In this document: in pieces, positions 5,544 to 28,384 of the stretch
Layout of the letters: each line of letters opens with the position of its first letter
Position numbering within the stretch: position 1 is the stretch's first letter
Origin: a virus
Virus record (IMG/VR): IMGVR_UViG_3300035182_000643
Coordinates: 1-38,187 of that record
DNA length: 38,187 nt
Reading direction: 5' to 3' (one strand)
Position numbers and translations under genes: made by a program
The notes under the pieces: generated by a model
What the model was told of the DNA's origin: nothing
Seen by the model: only the letters and a program-made list of their open reading frames with translations
The model's database searches: none

Positions 5544-6497
5544 CTATAATGATGCTCCAGCTAAACCACCTCTGGCTTTACCTACTGATGTTTCCACTTG
5601 AACAAGAGTAGCTGTGGGAGATAGTAATGTAGTAGTATTTAATGGACCATTTCCACCATAGAATAATGCATTATTTCCTACACTTGCACCTGATAGTTGT
5701 GCTCTAGCAGTACCTATATTTGTTTCAGCTTGAACAAGAGTAGCTGTGGGAGATAGTAATGTAGTAGTATTTATGTAATTTGAAATATATCCACCATAGA
5801 ATAAAGCATTTCCTACAACATTTGCACCTCCTATCCAAGACCTTGACGTACCTAATGCAGTTTCAGCTTGAACTAAAGTAGCAGTAGAAGATAATAAAGT
5901 AATAATATTTACATAATTTGAAACATATCCACAATAGAATAAAGCATTTGTTCCAACATTTGATCCTCCACCACTTATATCACGTCTACCTGTACCTACA
6001 TTGGTTTCAGCTTGAACTAAAGTAGCTGTTGGGGATAGTATAGTAGCTTTGTTTATATTTGCTGAAGTATATCCTGCATAAAACAATGCATTTATTCCTA
6101 CATTTGCTCCAGCTAATCTACTTGCAGCTGTTCCAATATTTGTTTCTGCTTGGACTAGAGTAGATGTAGGAGACAATATAGTGGCTATAGAAATATTTGT
6201 TGAAGTATAACCAGCATAAAATAATGCATTGATTCCTATGTTTGCACCAGCCAAATTGCTTCTAGAAGTACCTACTGAGACTTCTGATTGTAATAATACA
6301 GCTGTTGTAGATAACAGTGTAGCTGTGGAAATAGGTCCTGCATTATCTCCTGCATAGAATAATGCTTTAGTAAAACCTGAATATTGAGTCCATACTATTA
6401 TACCATTAGCTATTACTTGCGTGATATTAACACCGTTTACAATTAAGTTATTTGCTACATTTTCAGGAATTAGTATTCCATTAGCATATAGTGGCAT
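5544..6497 (-). CDS. Kelch-like repeat tail fibre/receptor-binding protein
   Basis: 317 residues. After a ~44-residue N-terminal domain, six repeats of 41-48 residues begin with ALFYxG, each followed by TTLLSPTATLVQAET, an Arg/Gly-rich patch and a GA(N/S)VG turn. This resembles the beta-propeller kelch motif, so a six-bladed propeller is the likely fold. Such propellers occur in phage fibre tips that bind host surfaces. The repeats are near-identical at DNA level, so copy number could change by recombination. The final repeat ends abruptly at GASL, which may close the propeller with the N-terminal strand. Confidence 0.7.
   Translation of the reverse strand: MPLYANGILIPENVANNLIVNGVNITQVIANGIIVWTQYSGFTKALFYAGDNAGPISTATLLSTTAVLLQSEVSVGTSRSNLAGANIGINALFYAGYTSTNISIATILSPTSTLVQAETNIGTAASRLAGANVGINALFYAGYTSANINKATILSPTATLVQAETNVGTGRRDISGGGSNVGTNALFYCGYVSNYVNIITLLSSTATLVQAETALGTSRSWIGGANVVGNALFYGGYISNYINTTTLLSPTATLVQAETNIGTARAQLSGASVGNNALFYGGNGPLNTTTLLSPTATLVQVETSVGKARGGLAGASL
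5547..6365 (-). repeat. Six tandem ~138-bp coding repeats in the kelch-like fibre gene
   Basis: The repeats encode ALFYxG-type units. The most similar neighbours share long stretches of nucleotide identity, for example the block encoding LLSPTATLVQAET in repeats 5 and 6. The array is in frame throughout. Confidence 0.75.
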
Positions 6498-9248: not shown

Positions 9249-10748
9249 TCAGAAAACTGTACTATCTATTATTTCTTGTTGTACTATTTCTCCATTATAA
9301 TCTTTTGAATAATCATTTGGAGTTACTACAAATCCTTCATCTAAGAAAGAAGCAAGTGTATCTATTCCATCATCGTGACCACTTGTATTTGTTTCTTTAG
9401 TTTGGCTCAATAGTTCTTTTTCTAATAATGCAAACTCATCTATTTTATCATCACTAGCAAACCACACCATTCTTTTCTTTAACTTTGGTTCAAGACCTAA
9501 TATTCTTACTTCTTTTTTTGTTGTTGAATTTAATATTAGAGAATTATAATAAAAATGAGTGTTCTCTTTCATCATTTTCTCTTCAATGAAGTGTCCTAAT
9601 ACTTGTTGTAATGCTGCTTTTTCTGCTCTTACTTCTAGTGGTTTCCATCTTCTAACTTGTTTAAATAGCATATCTAATACTTCAGTTGGAGTAAATCTTC
9701 CAAAGTCTAATCCTACAATAAACCAATGGTTATCACTATTTACTGCTATTGTCATAACACAAGTTCTATCTGCTTTTTCCTTCTTACTTACTGCTAAGTC
9801 CATAGTTGTAAAGAAATTATACTTATGTTTCTCTTTTGCAATATCACTTATCTTAAAGTGCTTTATGTATTCTTTTTTGAATATTTGTGTTTCTTCATTA
9901 ACTACTTGTAACATCATCTCTCTAAAAAATATACTCTCTTCTCCCATTGATTTATTCTCTAAATACTCTTCATATATTGCATCTGGAGTAAATCTATCAG
10001 GCCATAAAGATTTTATTTCACTCTTTGGTACTGGAAATTCTTGACATACTGGTAGTTTTATATTATGCCAACTAGAACTTTGTGCAAACATTCCAAGTAA
10101 GTCATTCTCTAATAATGGAGTACCAATCATAATCATTTTATAGTGTCTAATGTTTACTGCCTTACTTACAACTGATGAGAACCAAGTCTTTTGTTTTGCT
10201 ACTAAATCTTTGTTATAAAGAATATCATCATTGAGAATATCATCTCCAATAAAAAGTTCTGGTCTATAACCTTCCCAGTTAGAACCACGAAACGATTGTC
10301 CAGTACCTTTGCAAAAGAATCTAGTTCTATGCCCTTTATTATTTATAAATACAGTTTCTCCCTCAACAGAACGTTCTACCTTCAGGAATGACTGTAATAC
10401 GTCACTTCTATCGTAATAACTCATCATAGTCTTTCTATGTGCTTCACTTTGATCGAATGTATCACTTAATATACAACAATTATTTACTTCTCCAAAATCA
10501 GGAAGAACACCAAACGTAGCTATAAATAATGGCATACGATGAGAAATTATTGTACTTTTTGCAAAACCACGATGACATTGAGCAGAGAATCTTTTTTCAG
10601 AAGTCATAACTTCATCTGCAAAGTAATAGTGAGCTAACGGAGTAATATTATCATCATCTTCCCACATCATATTACAAAATGAAAAGAACTTAACACTATT
10701 GGCTTTAGGAACATAGTTATCTATAAAAGATATATCTATCTTACTCAT
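9249..10748 (-). CDS. terL: Terminase large subunit
   Basis: 499 residues, the usual length of TerL. The N-terminal ATPase shows a deviant Walker A (CHRGFAKST, residues 58-66), Walker B with acidic pair (LFIGDD, 165-170) and a coupling motif region MIGTPL (207-212). The C-terminal RNase H-like nuclease shows TMDLAVS (Asp317) and GHDDGIDTL near residue 465. It packages DNA into proheads at the portal and cuts concatemers. It overlaps TerS by 4 bp (ATGA). The Walker A lacks the classical GKT, as in several podovirus terminases. Confidence 0.9.
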   Translation of the reverse strand: MSKIDISFIDNYVPKANSVKFFSFCNMMWEDDDNITPLAHYYFADEVMTSEKRFSAQCHRGFAKSTIISHRMPLFIATFGVLPDFGEVNNCCILSDTFDQSEAHRKTMMSYYDRSDVLQSFLKVERSVEGETVFINNKGHRTRFFCKGTGQSFRGSNWEGYRPELFIGDDILNDDILYNKDLVAKQKTWFSSVVSKAVNIRHYKMIMIGTPLLENDLLGMFAQSSSWHNIKLPVCQEFPVPKSEIKSLWPDRFTPDAIYEEYLENKSMGEESIFFREMMLQVVNEETQIFKKEYIKHFKISDIAKEKHKYNFFTTMDLAVSKKEKADRTCVMTIAVNSDNHWFIVGLDFGRFTPTEVLDMLFKQVRRWKPLEVRAEKAALQQVLGHFIEEKMMKENTHFYYNSLILNSTTKKEVRILGLEPKLKKRMVWFASDDKIDEFALLEKELLSQTKETNTSGHDDGIDTLASFLDEGFVVTPNDYSKDYNGEIVQQEIIDSTVF

Positions 10749-11275
10749 TTTATTACTTCTGCATCTATAATTGAACCATCACGCATTAATATCTTAGCAT
10801 TATCACTTAATAACTTTAGATGAAGTTCTAGTTTATCTAGCATATCAGAACCAATGTTTATATTAATCGGAACATCAGCTTTCATATCTGGCTTCTTAGT
10901 TGCATCTATAAAACTCTTTAATGCAGATACCCTATTTTTTTCATCTTCTCCATTTATACCAATATTAAATAACTCATCTAATGCTTGATAATGTTTGTCA
11001 CAATACATAATATGGTTCGATGTAATCATTCTGTTTATGATTTCATTTATCCATTTTGTATGAACAAGTTTATTAGCTAACTTAGTAGCTTTATTCCTAT
11101 TTGGCTCATCATATACTTCCATATAACATATAGCTTTATTCTTCTTCTCACTAAGTAATAAACAGAACTCTAATGCATCAGAGAATCTTTTATCTTCAAT
11201 CTTATATCTACCCTTAATATCACTAAAGTCACTTATCATACTACTAACAATAAGGTTATTTGAACCGTCTTCCAT
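10745..11275 (-). CDS. terS: Terminase small subunit
   Basis: 176 residues. Residues about 28-75 form a helix-turn-helix-like region (DALEFCLLLSEKKNKAICYM) seen in TerS DNA-binding domains. A long oligomerisation helix follows, and the acidic C-terminus could contact TerL. It lies immediately upstream of terL with a 4-bp overlap. It would recognise the packaging site, often inside or close to its own gene. Start supported by AAGGA eight bases upstream. Family call is from gene order plus the HTH-like region. Confidence 0.7.
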   Translation of the reverse strand: MEDGSNNLIVSSMISDFSDIKGRYKIEDKRFSDALEFCLLLSEKKNKAICYMEVYDEPNRNKATKLANKLVHTKWINEIINRMITSNHIMYCDKHYQALDELFNIGINGEDEKNRVSALKSFIDATKKPDMKADVPININIGSDMLDKLELHLKLLSDNAKILMRDGSIIDAEVIK

Positions 11276-11324
11276 AGCTAATCCTTTTTGTGTAATTATA
11301 CTTTATTTTGATATACTTCGCTTG

Positions 11325-11352
11325 CCATATAGAACTGCCTTCATCTATATGG
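11325..11352. promoter_or_regulatory. 9-bp perfect inverted repeat in the terS leader
   Basis: CCATATAGA (11325-11333) and TCTATATGG (11344-11352) are perfect inverted repeats around a 10-nt spacer, 50-77 bases upstream of the terS ATG. It could be an operator for late transcription or an mRNA hairpin in the terS leader. No poly-T follows on the minus strand. Confidence 0.45.
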
Positions 11353-11385
11353 TACTTTCTTTAATACTTCCTCCTTTTCTTCTTC

Positions 11386-11414
11386 ATTCCCATTGTCTTT
11401 ATGATAGTGGGAAT
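11386..11414. other. Hairpin in the terS leader
   Basis: ATTCCCA (11386-11392) pairs perfectly with TGGGAAT (11408-11414) around a 15-nt loop. On the minus strand it is followed by a purine-rich run with an AAAGGAGG ribosome-like site (11370-11377 region) that has no convincing reading frame behind it. Confidence 0.35.
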
Positions 11415-11421
11415 ATCAATA

Positions 11422-11440
11422 CCAAAAAAGATACAAATTT
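11422..11440 (+). repeat. Copy 1 of CCAAAAAAGATRCAAATTT element
   Basis: CCAAAAAAGATACAAATTT matches two other copies at 14999-15017 and 15054-15072 with one A/G difference. Copies 1 and 2 stay similar for ten more bases. All three are outside genes, and in this window I found no coding copy. Confidence 0.6.
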
Positions 11441-11460
11441 TAAAACATATACTCTAAAAA

Positions 11461-11469
11461 GTTATAGCA
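11461..11469 (-). promoter_or_regulatory. Possible late promoter, extended -10 (TGCTATAAC)
   Basis: On the minus strand TGCTATAAC (TGnTATAAt type) lies about 190 bases upstream of terS, after an A-tract. No good -35 is visible. Transcription from it would read the two leader hairpins and then terS and terL. Confidence 0.3.
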
Positions 11470-11714
11470 TTTTTTTTAAACACAATATTCAACAAAACAC
11501 CAAAACCAAAATCCCGTCCCCCGTACCTATTGTCCATAGATAAAAAAGCAATCTCATCAAGTCCAGAGTCCATATAGGCACAACGAGAAGATGACAGCTC
11601 ATCACACACATGACGAAATAAGATTAGTGATGATGTATCTAAAGTCCCTAGTACACGGTGTTGAAGTACCCTTGACATATTTTGCTTATATGATGGTACA
11701 GCCTCAAAATTTCC

Positions 11715-11742
11715 TTGATTAAAATTTAAACTATGGTATAAT
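11715..11742 (+). promoter_or_regulatory. Sigma70-type promoter TTGATT-16-TATAAT with extended -10
   Basis: TTGATT (11715-11720), a 16-bp spacer and TATAAT (11737-11742), with TGG before the -10 (TGGTATAAT). Start of transcription would be near 11749. No gene follows for almost 800 bp, so the transcript would be non-coding or a very long leader. Confidence 0.65.
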
Positions 11743-11756
11743 GCCTTTAGGCATTA
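11739..11756. promoter_or_regulatory. 18-bp palindrome overlapping the promoter: likely operator
   Basis: TAATGCCTTTAGGCATTA has perfect 8-bp arms around a TT centre. It overlaps the last bases of the -10 and the expected start site, the position of a repressor operator. If transcribed it would also form a 5' end hairpin. Confidence 0.55.
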
Positions 11757-11792
11757 CCTTCAAATCTACCCTTTACAACATACCCCAAAACA

Positions 11793-11945
11793 CAAACATT
11801 ATTTAAGCAATCCCTATTTATAGCCATTGTTGCACTATTTACTAATATAAGATGCTTCATATATATTCGAGGTGCAACGATATCATTTTAAGACGTATAC
11901 TTATAAGGGTTAAACAATCCTAGCGCATAAGCTTATATATGATAA
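11793..11945 (+). repeat. Twin element A (paralogue of 12226-12378)
   Basis: Ungapped alignment with element B at a constant offset of 433 bp gives roughly 55% identity over ~155 positions, by my hand count. Exact shared blocks are CAAACATTATTT (11793), AATATAAGATGCT (11844), CAACGA (11875), TTATAA (11901) and CTAGCG (11920), all at identical spacing. No coding frame is kept, and the strongest helix of A is not found at the aligned place in B. Confidence 0.6.
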
Positions 11946-12078
11946 TGAGCCAAAATAGGGGATAACCTCCATTTATATTATGCACTGAGATAGTGGACTG
12001 TATAATCTAGTTTATAGTGCATTGAGATTATGCAAAGTTATATTTATCTATTGAGCTGTTATCTAATACAGATAATAT

Positions 12079-12126
12079 CTTTCTATCTGGTGAGCCAACA
12101 AGATATCAGATTATAAAGTTTTTTTT
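12079..12126 (+). terminator. Possible intrinsic terminator with T8 tract
   Basis: CTTT (12079-12082) and ATCTG (12085-12089) pair with CAGAT (12107-12111) and AAAG (12115-12118), directly followed by eight T (12119-12126). The stem is weak and broken by an internal loop, and a competing helix ATATCTT/AAGATAT (12075-12081/12100-12106) uses some of the same bases. Confidence 0.35.
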
Positions 12127-12225
12127 GCTGGATCAGATAATAAATCAATTAATAAGTTTCTCTTTGCTCATTGCTTTTTATTAAACGAAGACTATTTTAT
12201 GCAACTATAAACAAGAGTTAAAAAG

Positions 12226-12378
12226 CAAACATTATTTGATAATTGATAAAATTATATACTTTTTAACTTATTGTTAAATATAAGATGCTCTATATCTGCC
12301 CTACAATCAACGAACTGCTTTTAACGTGTACATTTATAATGGCAAAGAGTTTCTAGCGTGTATCGTTTATGCTGATAT
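12226..12378 (+). repeat. Twin element B (paralogue of 11793-11945)
   Basis: Shares blocks CAAACATTATTT (12226), AATATAAGATGCT (12277), CAACGA (12308), TTATAA (12334) and CTAGCG (12353) with element A. A 9-bp helix GTTAAAAAG (12217-12225) with CTTTTTAAC (12259-12267) brackets its left part. TTGTT (12271-12275) can pair with AACGA (12309-12313). No convincing promoter lies directly upstream. Confidence 0.6.
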
Positions 12379-12454
12379 CTCTATTTATAGATACAAGATG
12401 AATAATAAAATAACTAATCACTTCTTTTTCACTGTTTAATATATAAATGAAATT

Positions 12455-12499
12455 CTTTTATAAATTTACAAAAAAAGCTTGACAAACTTTTATAAATTT
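12455..12499 (+). repeat. Two 13-bp direct repeats over the early promoter
   Basis: CTTTTATAAATTT occurs at 12455-12467 and 12487-12499, 32 bp apart (about three helical turns). The second copy fills the spacer of the early promoter. Its core TTTATAAA is palindromic, so these look like binding sites for an early-gene regulator. Confidence 0.5.
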
Positions 12500-12507
12500 G
12501 CTAAAAT
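12479..12507 (+). promoter_or_regulatory. Consensus early promoter TTGACA-17-TAAAAT
   Basis: TTGACA (12479-12484), a 17-bp spacer and TAAAAT (12502-12507), with TG one base before the -10. It is 32 bases upstream of the first plus-strand ATG and must drive the early block. This is the best sigma70 match I see in the window. Confidence 0.8.
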
Positions 12508-12538
12508 TAGTACATCAAAAGAAAGAAGGAGTTACAAA

Positions 12539-12658
12539 ATGAGTATCACTTATGAAAGACAAGGAATCAAGAGAACGGTTAAAGTAAATCATAGCGTAGC
12601 TATTAAAACGGTAATTATGTTTATGAACTTAAAATATAGCATAATAGAAATAAAGTAA
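12539..12658 (+). CDS. First early protein, 39 residues, basic
   Basis: Thirty-nine codons with a strong ribosome site (AAGAAGGAG, 8 bases before ATG), about 30 bases downstream of the consensus early promoter. The first half is basic (ERQGIKRTVKVNHSVAIK) and the second half hydrophobic. It is too short for a domain call. First-transcribed small phage proteins often inhibit or redirect host machinery, but that is only analogy here. Two hairpins follow before the next gene. Confidence 0.6.
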   Translation: MSITYERQGIKRTVKVNHSVAIKTVIMFMNLKYSIIEIK

Positions 12659-16822: not shown

Positions 16823-16925
16823 TATAATATAGACGTCCCAAATTTTGGGATAAGAAACTCTGAATATCCCAAAATTTGACTCTGAATATCCCAAAATTTG
16901 ACTCTGAATATCCCAAAATTTGGGA
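16823..16925 (+). promoter_or_regulatory. Promoter -10 plus four TCCCAAA operator/iteron sites
   Basis: TATAAT (16823-16828) is followed by TCCCAAATTTTGGGA (16836-16850), then three 22-bp direct repeats starting at 16858, 16880 and 16902, each containing TCCCAAAATTTG. The first and last sites are full inverted repeats (arms TCCCAAA/TTTGGGA, the last at 16911-16925); the two in the middle carry only one full arm. Spacing of sites is 31, 22 and 22 bp, about two helical turns. Most likely the operator of the RHH gene downstream; a replication-origin iteron array is the alternative. Confidence 0.7.
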
Positions 16926-17017
16926 TATGGAACATAAACAATATTTTATATTCTTTTTATATTAGTTTTATATTTAGTATGATACAATACAATACACCAA
17001 AACTAAAAGGAAACACA

Positions 17018-17179
17018 ATGGAAACAAAATTAATCAAGGCAAGTAAAGCTGTCACTTTTACATTGAACGATGATGTTCTACGTATGCTTAAAGAATTGGC
17101 TGAAAAAAACTCAAACTCTATGAGCTATGAGATAAGAAGGTTAATTAAAGATGAGTATAGCAGAACAGTTACTAACTAA
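17018..17179 (+). CDS. Ribbon-helix-helix (Arc/CopG-type) regulator
   Basis: 53 residues from the ATG at 17018, chosen for AAAAGG seven bases upstream. Beta strand KAVTFTLNDD, then two helices (VLRMLKELAEKN and SMSYEIRRLIKDEY), which is the RHH fold. RHH dimers bind repeated short half-sites, matching the TCCCAAA array about 90 bp upstream, so autoregulation or origin control is likely. A second possible -10 (TATGAT, 16978) lies just upstream of the gene. Overlaps the next gene by 29 bp. Confidence 0.75.
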   Translation: METKLIKASKAVTFTLNDDVLRMLKELAEKNSNSMSYEIRRLIKDEYSRTVTN

Positions 17180-17543
17180 CGGTTGGCAGAATGTAGGAAT
17201 TATGGTTCAATATGCAAGAAAAAATATAAATGCTAAGAATAGGAATATTTTTATATGCTTAGTTGAAGAATCATTCGGATATGGTAATGCTAAAACATTA
17301 CATAAAACTCAAGAATATTGGAGCAAATCCTTTGGAGTATCTAAAAATACATTCAATTCTCAAGTAAAAGAACTTTCAGATGATGGTCATATAAAAATAA
17401 ACCATCAGAATGGACGTGTAGAAGGTGGTGGTTCAAAGTCATATTCATACAGTCCAATATTCCCGAAGAACGCTAGGATATGGATTAAGAGTCAAAAAAA
17501 TGAACCTGAAATAATAACAGAATTAAAGGATGCACAATGGTAA
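17151..17543 (+). CDS. Winged-helix replication-initiator-like protein
   Basis: 130 residues. Residues about 45-100 (YWSKSFGVSKNTFNSQVKEL...GHIKINHQNG) form a winged helix-turn-helix similar to the N-terminal DNA-binding domain of phage replication proteins of the lambda O type. The C-terminal region is short and lacks the helicase-loader contact region. Placed between the iterated sites plus RHH gene and the helicase-primase, it is the best candidate for origin recognition. A transcription factor remains possible. Confidence 0.6.
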   Translation: MSIAEQLLTNGWQNVGIMVQYARKNINAKNRNIFICLVEESFGYGNAKTLHKTQEYWSKSFGVSKNTFNSQVKELSDDGHIKINHQNGRVEGGGSKSYSYSPIFPKNARIWIKSQKNEPEIITELKDAQW

Positions 17544-19814: not shown

Positions 19815-19831
19815 AGGATATTTACAAAACT

Positions 19832-19861
19832 ACTTAAATTTGCAAAAAGTTTAAGTTTTAT
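19832..19861 (+). terminator. Terminator after the helicase-primase gene
   Basis: ACTTAAA (19832-19838) pairs with TTTAAGT (19850-19856), followed by TTTATT. A second hairpin GAAGAG-TCTAT-CTCTTC (19899-19915) with CTTT after it could back it up or stop transcription from the other side. Confidence 0.5.
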
Positions 19862-19939
19862 TAAAGTTTATAAATGCTACAATTTCCCTACAACAAAAGA
19901 AGAGTCTATCTCTTCCTTTGAGTTTCTTAATTTACAAGC

Positions 19940-20026
19940 CTAAGATAAAGATAGGGTTAAATAAAATTTATGGTCTTTAAATGAACCATATAATACTTTT
20001 TTAAATATTTCGATATAGTTACTCAT
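19940..20026 (-). CDS. Possible antisense 28-residue peptide
   Basis: On the minus strand an ATG at 20026 has AAAGGAAA spaced normally upstream and reads 28 codons, ending TLSLS. It would be the only minus-strand gene inside the early block and lies just after the structured region on that strand. Short and without a clear promoter, so doubtful. Confidence 0.25.
   Translation of the reverse strand: MSNYIEIFKKVLYGSFKDHKFYLTLSLS
19967..19994 (+). promoter_or_regulatory. Weak promoter candidate upstream of the structured region
   Basis: TTTATG (19967-19972), 16-bp spacer and TATAAT (19989-19994). It lies between the terminators of the helicase-primase gene and the structured stretch 20050-20340, so would supply transcription for the next gene set. 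Confidence 0.3.
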
Positions 20027-20049
20027 AACATTTCCTTTATTTTATAAGT

Positions 20050-20340
20050 GTTGGGATTGTTAGATTGAGTGCATCTATTGGCTGTAAAACTTCTGATGCC
20101 TCAATCGCCTCTATGTTACCTACTATATGTATGTTCCCCCAACCTGAACCAAGTCCCTACCTATGGGACTTCTGTTCATATTAATAACCGTTATGATATC
20201 TATATCTAAATAAATGTTTTATTGAGTACATAAAGTCATCCAACATCGCAAAATCAGTCACTAAGAACTTTTCACTTTGCGAATATTATAAGTAAATGGT
20301 AGTGGATTAGCCTTTGTACTCTATAAAGCATTTAGCTTTA
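20050..20340 (+). ncRNA. Candidate structured RNA or long structured leader
   Basis: Non-coding, with six nested or adjacent helices. GTTGGG/CCCAAC (20050-20055/20138-20143) encloses GATTGAG+GCATC paired with GATGC+CTCAATC (20063-20075/20095-20106, 12 bp, one bulged base). Next comes TGAAC+AAGTCCC paired with GGGACTT+GTTCA (20145-20178). GAGTACA+AAG pairs with CTT+TGTACTC (20224-20235/20312-20321), enclosing ATCCA/TGGAT (20238/20303) and TCGCAAA/TTTGCGA (20246/20276). TAAAGC/GCTTTA (20324-20340) abuts the next ribosome site. All pairs are Watson-Crick, so strand cannot be decided; plus is favoured by the downstream gene. Confidence 0.42.
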
Positions 20341-20351
20341 AAGGAGTAAAT

Positions 20352-20447
20352 ATGTATATAGTAAATGGAGTCGACCACGAGTTGATAGATGAAATATATC
20401 AAGAGACATTAGAACTAGAAAAGGAAAGTAAAGATGGAAGAAATTAA
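20352..20447 (+). CDS. 31-residue acidic leader peptide
   Basis: Strong ribosome site (AAAGGAG) directly downstream of the last hairpin of the structured region. Thirty-one codons with many Glu/Asp, overlapping the next gene by 14 bp. No family recognised. It may simply initiate translation of this operon. Confidence 0.55.
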   Translation: MYIVNGVDHELIDEIYQETLELEKESKDGRN

Positions 20448-27613: not shown

Positions 27614-28384
27614 ATGATTACAAGTGAGTTTATAGATAGAAAGATGAATACTATAATACAAGGAGATTGTATTGAGATTATGAAACAAATACCAGATAAC
27701 TATTTCGATGTAATCATAACAAGCCCTCCATATAACAAAGCAGGGTTTGAGGGGTTTTTAAGAAAAAGACATAGTTCTGACTCGTGGAAACAAAGAAATG
27801 TTGATTATGGAAAGGTTATAGAAAATGACTTTATGGATGAAGAAAAATATAAAGAATGGCAGATAAATTTATTAAATGAAATGCACAGAATAATAAAACA
27901 TAATGGAAGTATTTTTTATAACCATAAAATTAGAATAGCAAATCACGGAGCATCACATCCTATAGAATGGATATTAAAAAGTAAGGCTAATTTCAGACAG
28001 CAGATAACTTGGGATAGGAGTAGTAGCCCAGCGGTAGCACCTATTAGATTTTTACCAAATACAGAACTTATATTTTGGCTAACAAAAGGAAAAGTTCAGC
28101 CTAATTTTACAAGAAATAAACAGATTGATTTTTTAGGAGAAGTTTGGAAGATAAGCGCAAAATCAAATCCAAACCACCCAGCACCATTTCCAATAGAGAT
28201 ACCTCTAAATATATTACCAAATATTAGCGGAGATATAAAAGTATTTGATCCATTTATGGGAAGCGGAACTACGGCATTAGCGTGTCAGGAGCTTGGCTTA
28301 GAATGGTGTGGATGTGAGATACATACAGATTACATAGAAATAGCAAACAATAGATTAAAAGGAGTACAAGGAAGCCTATTCTAA
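27614..28384 (+). CDS. DNA methyltransferase (N4-cytosine or N6-adenine type)
   Basis: 256 residues. Catalytic TSPPYN (36-41) comes before the SAM-binding FDPFMGSGTT (211-220), the order of beta-class amino-methyltransferases; TSPPY is typical of the N4-cytosine type and also of some N6-adenine enzymes. No restriction partner is nearby, so it is a solitary methylase that likely protects phage DNA. Last gene of the plus block; an inverted repeat follows. Confidence 0.8.
   Translation: MITSEFIDRKMNTIIQGDCIEIMKQIPDNYFDVIITSPPYNKAGFEGFLRKRHSSDSWKQRNVDYGKVIENDFMDEEKYKEWQINLLNEMHRIIKHNGSIFYNHKIRIANHGASHPIEWILKSKANFRQQITWDRSSSPAVAPIRFLPNTELIFWLTKGKVQPNFTRNKQIDFLGEVWKISAKSNPNHPAPFPIEIPLNILPNISGDIKVFDPFMGSGTTALACQELGLEWCGCEIHTDYIEIANNRLKGVQGSLF

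Follow-up and report, generated by a model that had tools for sequence, protein, structure and literature searches.

The only divergent region of a little-known phage genome carries a pair of real, selected, lineage-restricted non-coding DNA elements. The two copies arose by duplication, continue to be conserved, keep a fixed internal spacing and have neither a conserved RNA fold nor a coding signal. Their sequence family is new to the searched databases; they belong to a known kind, the repeated cis elements of phage control regions. Among the readings weighed here we favor, tentatively, that the pair is a duplicated DNA element in the early/late control region to which proteins bind at several sites.

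Results

A compact phage genome with a single divergent region

The elements are carried by the IMG/VR virus fragment IMGVR_UViG_3300035182_000643, analyzed over 38,187 bp (hereafter, the window). The phage is distantly akin to the N4-like phages: its large terminase (TerL) and its primase show ~30% and ~25% identity, respectively, to the N4-like counterparts, while its major head protein is distantly related to phrog_1357. We scanned IMG/VR with TerS, TerL, a TerL alignment, one early protein and four DNA patterns. Just two other contigs proved to be close relatives, both from metagenome 3300035661, and these scans revealed no other phage with the elements beyond the window and those two contigs. 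One contig is identical to the window in the stretches compared; the other, 3300035661_000304 (hereafter, the relative, whose matching locus is called L003), has diverged, with a TerL that is 97% identical. The scan with the TerL alignment also returned many terminases of ~30% identity, and a scan of genome contigs with that same alignment gave terminases of at most 30% identity and nothing closer. Two extra matches to the DNA patterns, both inside open reading frames, were discarded as chance, and a search of INPHARED DNA with the region gave chance matches only.

In the orientation of the window, the start of the relative's contig is 97% identical to the window's right end. After that come 4731 bp of further leftward genes, one of which encodes a portal-sized protein of 666 aa, and the contig then runs into the left end of the window. 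Since it joins both ends of the window, the map closes at ~42.9 kb, and we describe the phage as podovirus-like, ~42.9 kb in size and of a little-known lineage. On the closed map there are two transcription arms: the late arm reads leftward from TerS, the early arm reads rightward from position 12539, and the two converge near 28.39 kb. The sole divergent region, 11276-12538 (1263 bp), is also the largest non-coding gap, and contains both elements (Table 1). The gene on its left was named TerS mainly because it is positioned before the large terminase gene, while the gene on its right shows a codon-position pattern of the coding type in its first 50 bases. No single-subunit or other phage RNA polymerase was recognized among the genes scanned. 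The phage proteins include an SSB. A second long non-coding gap (19815-20433, 619 bp) follows the primase gene; it starts with a promoter-like sequence and lacks direct repeats. At 5544-6497 lie the window's strongest direct DNA repeats, in a gene whose product carries a repeated unit of ~46 aa (ALFYAGY...TLLSPTATLVQAET) and is probably a tail protein.

Table 1 Features of the divergent region and its borders, in window coordinates
Feature	Position	Strand	Remarks
Probable small terminase subunit (TerS), first gene of the leftward arm	10745..11275	-	Weak family matches
Candidate promoter P1, TTGATT-16-TATAAT	11715-11742 (with palindrome, 11715..11757)	+	Putative function
Copy 1	11784..11956	+	nhmmer; ungapped against the relative, 85% identity
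Block AAACATTATTT	11794..11804 (copy 1), 12227-12237 (copy 2)	+	Identical in 4/4 copies
Block ATAAGATG	11847..11854 (copy 1), 12280-12287 (copy 2)	+	Invariant in the four copies
23-codon open frame	11852..11923 (copy 1), 12285-12356 (copy 2)	+	Judged not to be a gene
Block CAACGA	11875..11880 (copy 1), 12308-12313 (copy 2)	+	Invariant
Block CTAGCG	11920..11925 (copy 1), 12353-12358 (copy 2)	+	Invariant
Block TGATA	11940..11944 (copy 1), 12373-12377 (copy 2)	+	Invariant
Spacer between the copies	11957..12190	.	Poorly conserved: 47% identity, 43 gap columns
Copy 2	12217..12390	+	nhmmer; ungapped against the relative, 83% identity
Candidate early promoter P2, TTGACA-17-TAAAAT, extended TG	12479..12507	+	Putative function
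First gene of the rightward early arm, 39 aa	12539..12658	+	Strong Shine-Dalgarno

The two copies are old tandem duplicates

The original prediction described five short blocks shared, in the same order and at the same distances, by two stretches of roughly 55% ungapped identity, far above chance. All five blocks are present as described, and we measured 88 identical positions out of 153 (57.5%) between 11793-11945 and 12226-12378. Within 11276-12540, the best non-overlapping ungapped pair of 153-mers scores 89, compared with a mean of 69.1 (sd 2.0) and a maximum of 80 in 200 dinucleotide shuffles; in the real region, the next-best offset reaches 75. Profiles built from one copy find the other: in searches with the copy 1 profile, the E value of copy 2 is 1.9e-7 for the window and 4e-9 for the relative; with the copy 2 profile, that of copy 1 is 9.2e-10 and 7.7e-10, respectively. 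The next-best matches of these profiles have E values of ~1 to 2. The similarity is therefore well above background. No third copy turned up when profiles were run against 97 more distant loci in addition to the window and the relative.

The two copies are thus homologous, old and diverged tandem duplicates. Their homologous core covers ~145 bases, about 11788-11930 in copy 1 and 12221-12362 in copy 2, while the 3' parts, to ~11956 and ~12390, are copy-specific, yet well conserved in the relative. The relative holds both copies, which fits a duplication that predates the split of the two phage lineages. The offset between them, proposed to be constant at 433 bp, is so within this genome, but it is 392 bp in the relative.

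Invariant blocks at fixed spacing remain under selection

Neither copy shows a single gap column when aligned with its counterpart in the relative, in contrast to the spacer. The alignment of the four copies is free of indels over its 175 columns, 76 of which are invariant and form, in order, the blocks AAACATTATTT, TATT, ATAAGATG, ATAT, CAACGA, CTAGCG and TGATA. The invariant columns are clustered (the observed value was reached in 0/2000 permutations), with a weak period of 10.3 bp (p=0.022, uncorrected); protein sites would give such a pattern. Moreover, the bases common to both copies are kept in the relative more often (90-91%) than the unshared ones (76-77%; Fisher p 0.007-0.022), so the copies have a common role still under selection; as there are only two genomes, few independent changes lie behind these statistics. 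Blocks common to both copies, fixed spacing and selection in both are the signs sought of a duplicated protein-binding DNA element, and all are present here. The presence of both copies in a related phage, with conservation of sequence without structure, likewise points to DNA, by the yardstick that came with the original prediction. Among the options it offered, a duplicated protein-binding region is the best supported.

Downstream of copy 2, at 12381-12400, both genomes carry a related site, ATACAAGATG, which resembles the ATAAGATG block plus its left flank. Three ATAAGATG-like sites per window were also obtained in 12/100 shuffles, and their number is not significant alone. In the spacer (11946-12110; L003 4080-4240), TGAGCCAA-type motifs occur in both genomes in differing numbers, some of them in the loops of small hairpins.

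Promoter-like sequences flank the pair

The promoter-like sequence P1 lies ~50 bp before copy 1 and is overlapped by the palindrome AATGCC-TTTA-GGCATT; both its -10 and the palindrome are kept in the alignment with L003. P2 follows copy 2 at a distance of ~90 bp, precedes the first early gene and is wholly conserved in the relative. In the promoter scan the region was no richer than its shuffles. As both copies have been kept between the promoter-like P1 and P2, control of the two arms is their most likely role.

Closer to TerS, the stretch 11322-11413 contains two inverted repeats and folds with z -5.8. The first is a 12-bp hairpin, ATTCCCATTGTC-TTTAT-GATAGTGGGAAT, whose + strand pairs with G-U, one G-U being changed to A-U in the relative; the second is CCATATAG...CTATATGG. 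Next to it, a leftward frame of 74 aa (11457-11678, - strand; MDSGLDEIAF...RYGG...KKNAITF) is partly kept in the relative, with indels and no third-position bias.

Alternative readings of the pair

The copies had also been proposed to be duplicated RNA genes; for structured RNA genes, the evidence is unfavorable. Consensus folds of the four copies, aligned without gaps, scored low on either strand (+ strand, SCI 0.09 and z -0.58; - strand, SCI 0.17 and z -2.04), and no conserved fold was seen within either orthologous pair, the consensus energy being no better than that of shuffled columns. Sliding local fold z-scores hover around zero across the elements. The exception is a stem at the 5' end of copy 2 (z -2.2 and -3.1), formed by an inverted repeat of 10-12 bp that both genomes retain; copy 1 has nothing equivalent. 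Rfam 15 gave no match in the window at gathering thresholds and chance-like matches only below threshold in the region. We thus rejected structured RNA genes by fold z-scores, by consensus folds with column shuffles and by Rfam at two thresholds. Unstructured RNA escapes the folding tests, and the copies could be two such paralogous RNAs, or could belong to a single long untranslated leader that starts at P1 and is recognized by an RNA-binding protein or pairs with targets. In favor of an RNA, a conserved promoter-like sequence precedes copy 1, and the inverted repeat of copy 2 could also be counted; against it, no fold is conserved and terminator-like sites are absent from both genomes. We regard an RNA of either type as unlikely. 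A protein product is more doubtful still. Contrary to the statement that no frame is conserved, 4/4 copies have an open frame of 23 codons, running from an ATG in ATAAGATG to a TAG in CTAGCG, although it is not gene-like. The copies might encode two fast-evolving 23-residue peptides, as start, stop and length are equal in all four and both codons fall within two of the strongest blocks. However, substitutions between orthologues are spread over the codon positions (4/6/5 and 4/9/2, with pN ~ pS), compared with 5/2/22 in TerS, a real gene; the interior of the frame is less conserved (77%) than its flanks (86-91%); and all four frames stay open by chance in 2% of permutations of all interior columns, or 19% when only the variable columns are permuted. 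Furthermore, no copy (0/4) has a Shine-Dalgarno at the start of the frame, while 54/55 gene starts of the phage do (at least 3 nt). With neither third-position bias nor a ribosome-binding site, and with homologous frames in the relative equally free of coding constraint, we rejected protein-coding elements, and consider the micropeptides very improbable.

The last proposal, paired origin or packaging elements, fares differently in its two halves. For packaging, a direct terminal repeat would have one of the copies at either border, where the terminase would recognize it and cut; the repeat would be about 430 bp long in this phage and 392 bp in the relative. TerL is akin (~30% identity) to that of N4-like phages, where terminal repeats are reported to measure 390-440 bp (401 bp in IME11; PMC3896407), a range that includes both inter-copy distances, 433 and 392. 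The elements also lie just upstream of the probable TerS gene, and, as the rest of the circle is spanned by the relative's contig, the genome ends could be here. In contrast, the mapped terminal-repeat borders of the two N4-like phages examined, IME11 and LUZ7, do not exceed shuffles in paralogous similarity, and the size match is weak because N4-like repeat lengths vary from 397 to 1974 bp (PMC3670811). We keep packaging as a somewhat unlikely contender, and find it rather doubtful that each border of a ~400-bp repeat carries a diverged copy of a large, multi-block terminase-recognition element whose spacing sets the repeat length. An origin, with the elements as initiator-binding sites or as a transcription-dependent origin, is quite improbable. 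The cumulative GC skew bottoms out at 11868, within copy 1, and peaks at 28374, but the minimum coincides with the switch in transcription direction and the maximum with the convergent junction of the arms. There is no good DnaA-box cluster at the elements, scans of the region for DnaA and IHF sites being unremarkable, and the clustered repeats beside an initiator gene that would mark an iteron/DnaA origin are elsewhere: three perfect 22-bp iterons at 16857-16922 are a better candidate. As these adjoin an initiator-like gene 4.5 kb away, an origin at the elements becomes less likely. The iterons (ACTCTGAATATCCCAAAATTTG) have flanking inverted copies (16836-16933 in all) and are located upstream of a ribbon-helix-helix gene (17019-17179) and the initiator-like gene (17151-17543). 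A diverged set (ATATCCCAAAAATTG...) occupies the same place in the relative. This stretch is likely a replication origin or an autoregulatory site.

Discussion

Our preferred reading, held with less than even confidence, is the multi-site, protein-binding element of the control region. The location supports it: the pair sits in the sole divergent gap, with promoter-like sequences conserved on either side. Against it, we identified no binding protein and no known operator matches, and the invariant blocks are non-palindromic, whereas many phage operators are palindromic. We infer that the elements are bound by proteins and that their purpose is the control of transcription. Our model suggests that an ancestral cis-acting DNA element was duplicated in tandem and both copies were retained. 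One or more phage or host proteins would bind the elements as double-stranded DNA, at several sites of fixed spacing, and the proteins bound at the blocks would set the use of P1, P2 and the late promoter near TerS. We hypothesize that the net role of this arrangement is transcriptional control of the early and late arms, which run in opposite directions.

Gene callers ignore non-coding signals, which are therefore seldom recognized in uncultured phages. Here, two copies in each of two genomes reveal a doubled, spacing-constrained element at the site that governs both arms. If it controls transcription, it offers an entry point to the early/late switch of this phage; if it sets the packaging ends, it would explain how the length of the terminal repeat is fixed.

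Our literature searches found no described equivalent of the element pair, and several known systems share part of its layout. In the HK022 put sites, which are short, strongly structured RNA antitermination elements, two paralogous non-coding elements also lie near early promoters of one phage, but the elements described here have no conserved structure. The primary origin of T7 has tandem promoters, and in both phages the early region contains tandem elements with AT-rich DNA behind them; unlike T7, no single-subunit RNA polymerase was recognized here, and the iterons and the initiator-like gene are elsewhere. With the N4-like phages (Schitoviridae) the phage shares a related TerL, a similar two-arm layout and a copy spacing within the range of terminal repeats, but its genome is ~43 kb rather than ~70 kb, and the IME11 and LUZ7 borders lack paralogous elements. 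In the lambda OL/OR type of control, repeated operators between opposed promoters set the order of gene expression. The pair resembles this arrangement in placing a repeated, presumably protein-bound element between opposed promoters, and differs from it in having a unit of ~145-175 bp with several non-palindromic blocks and no repressor gene between the copies.
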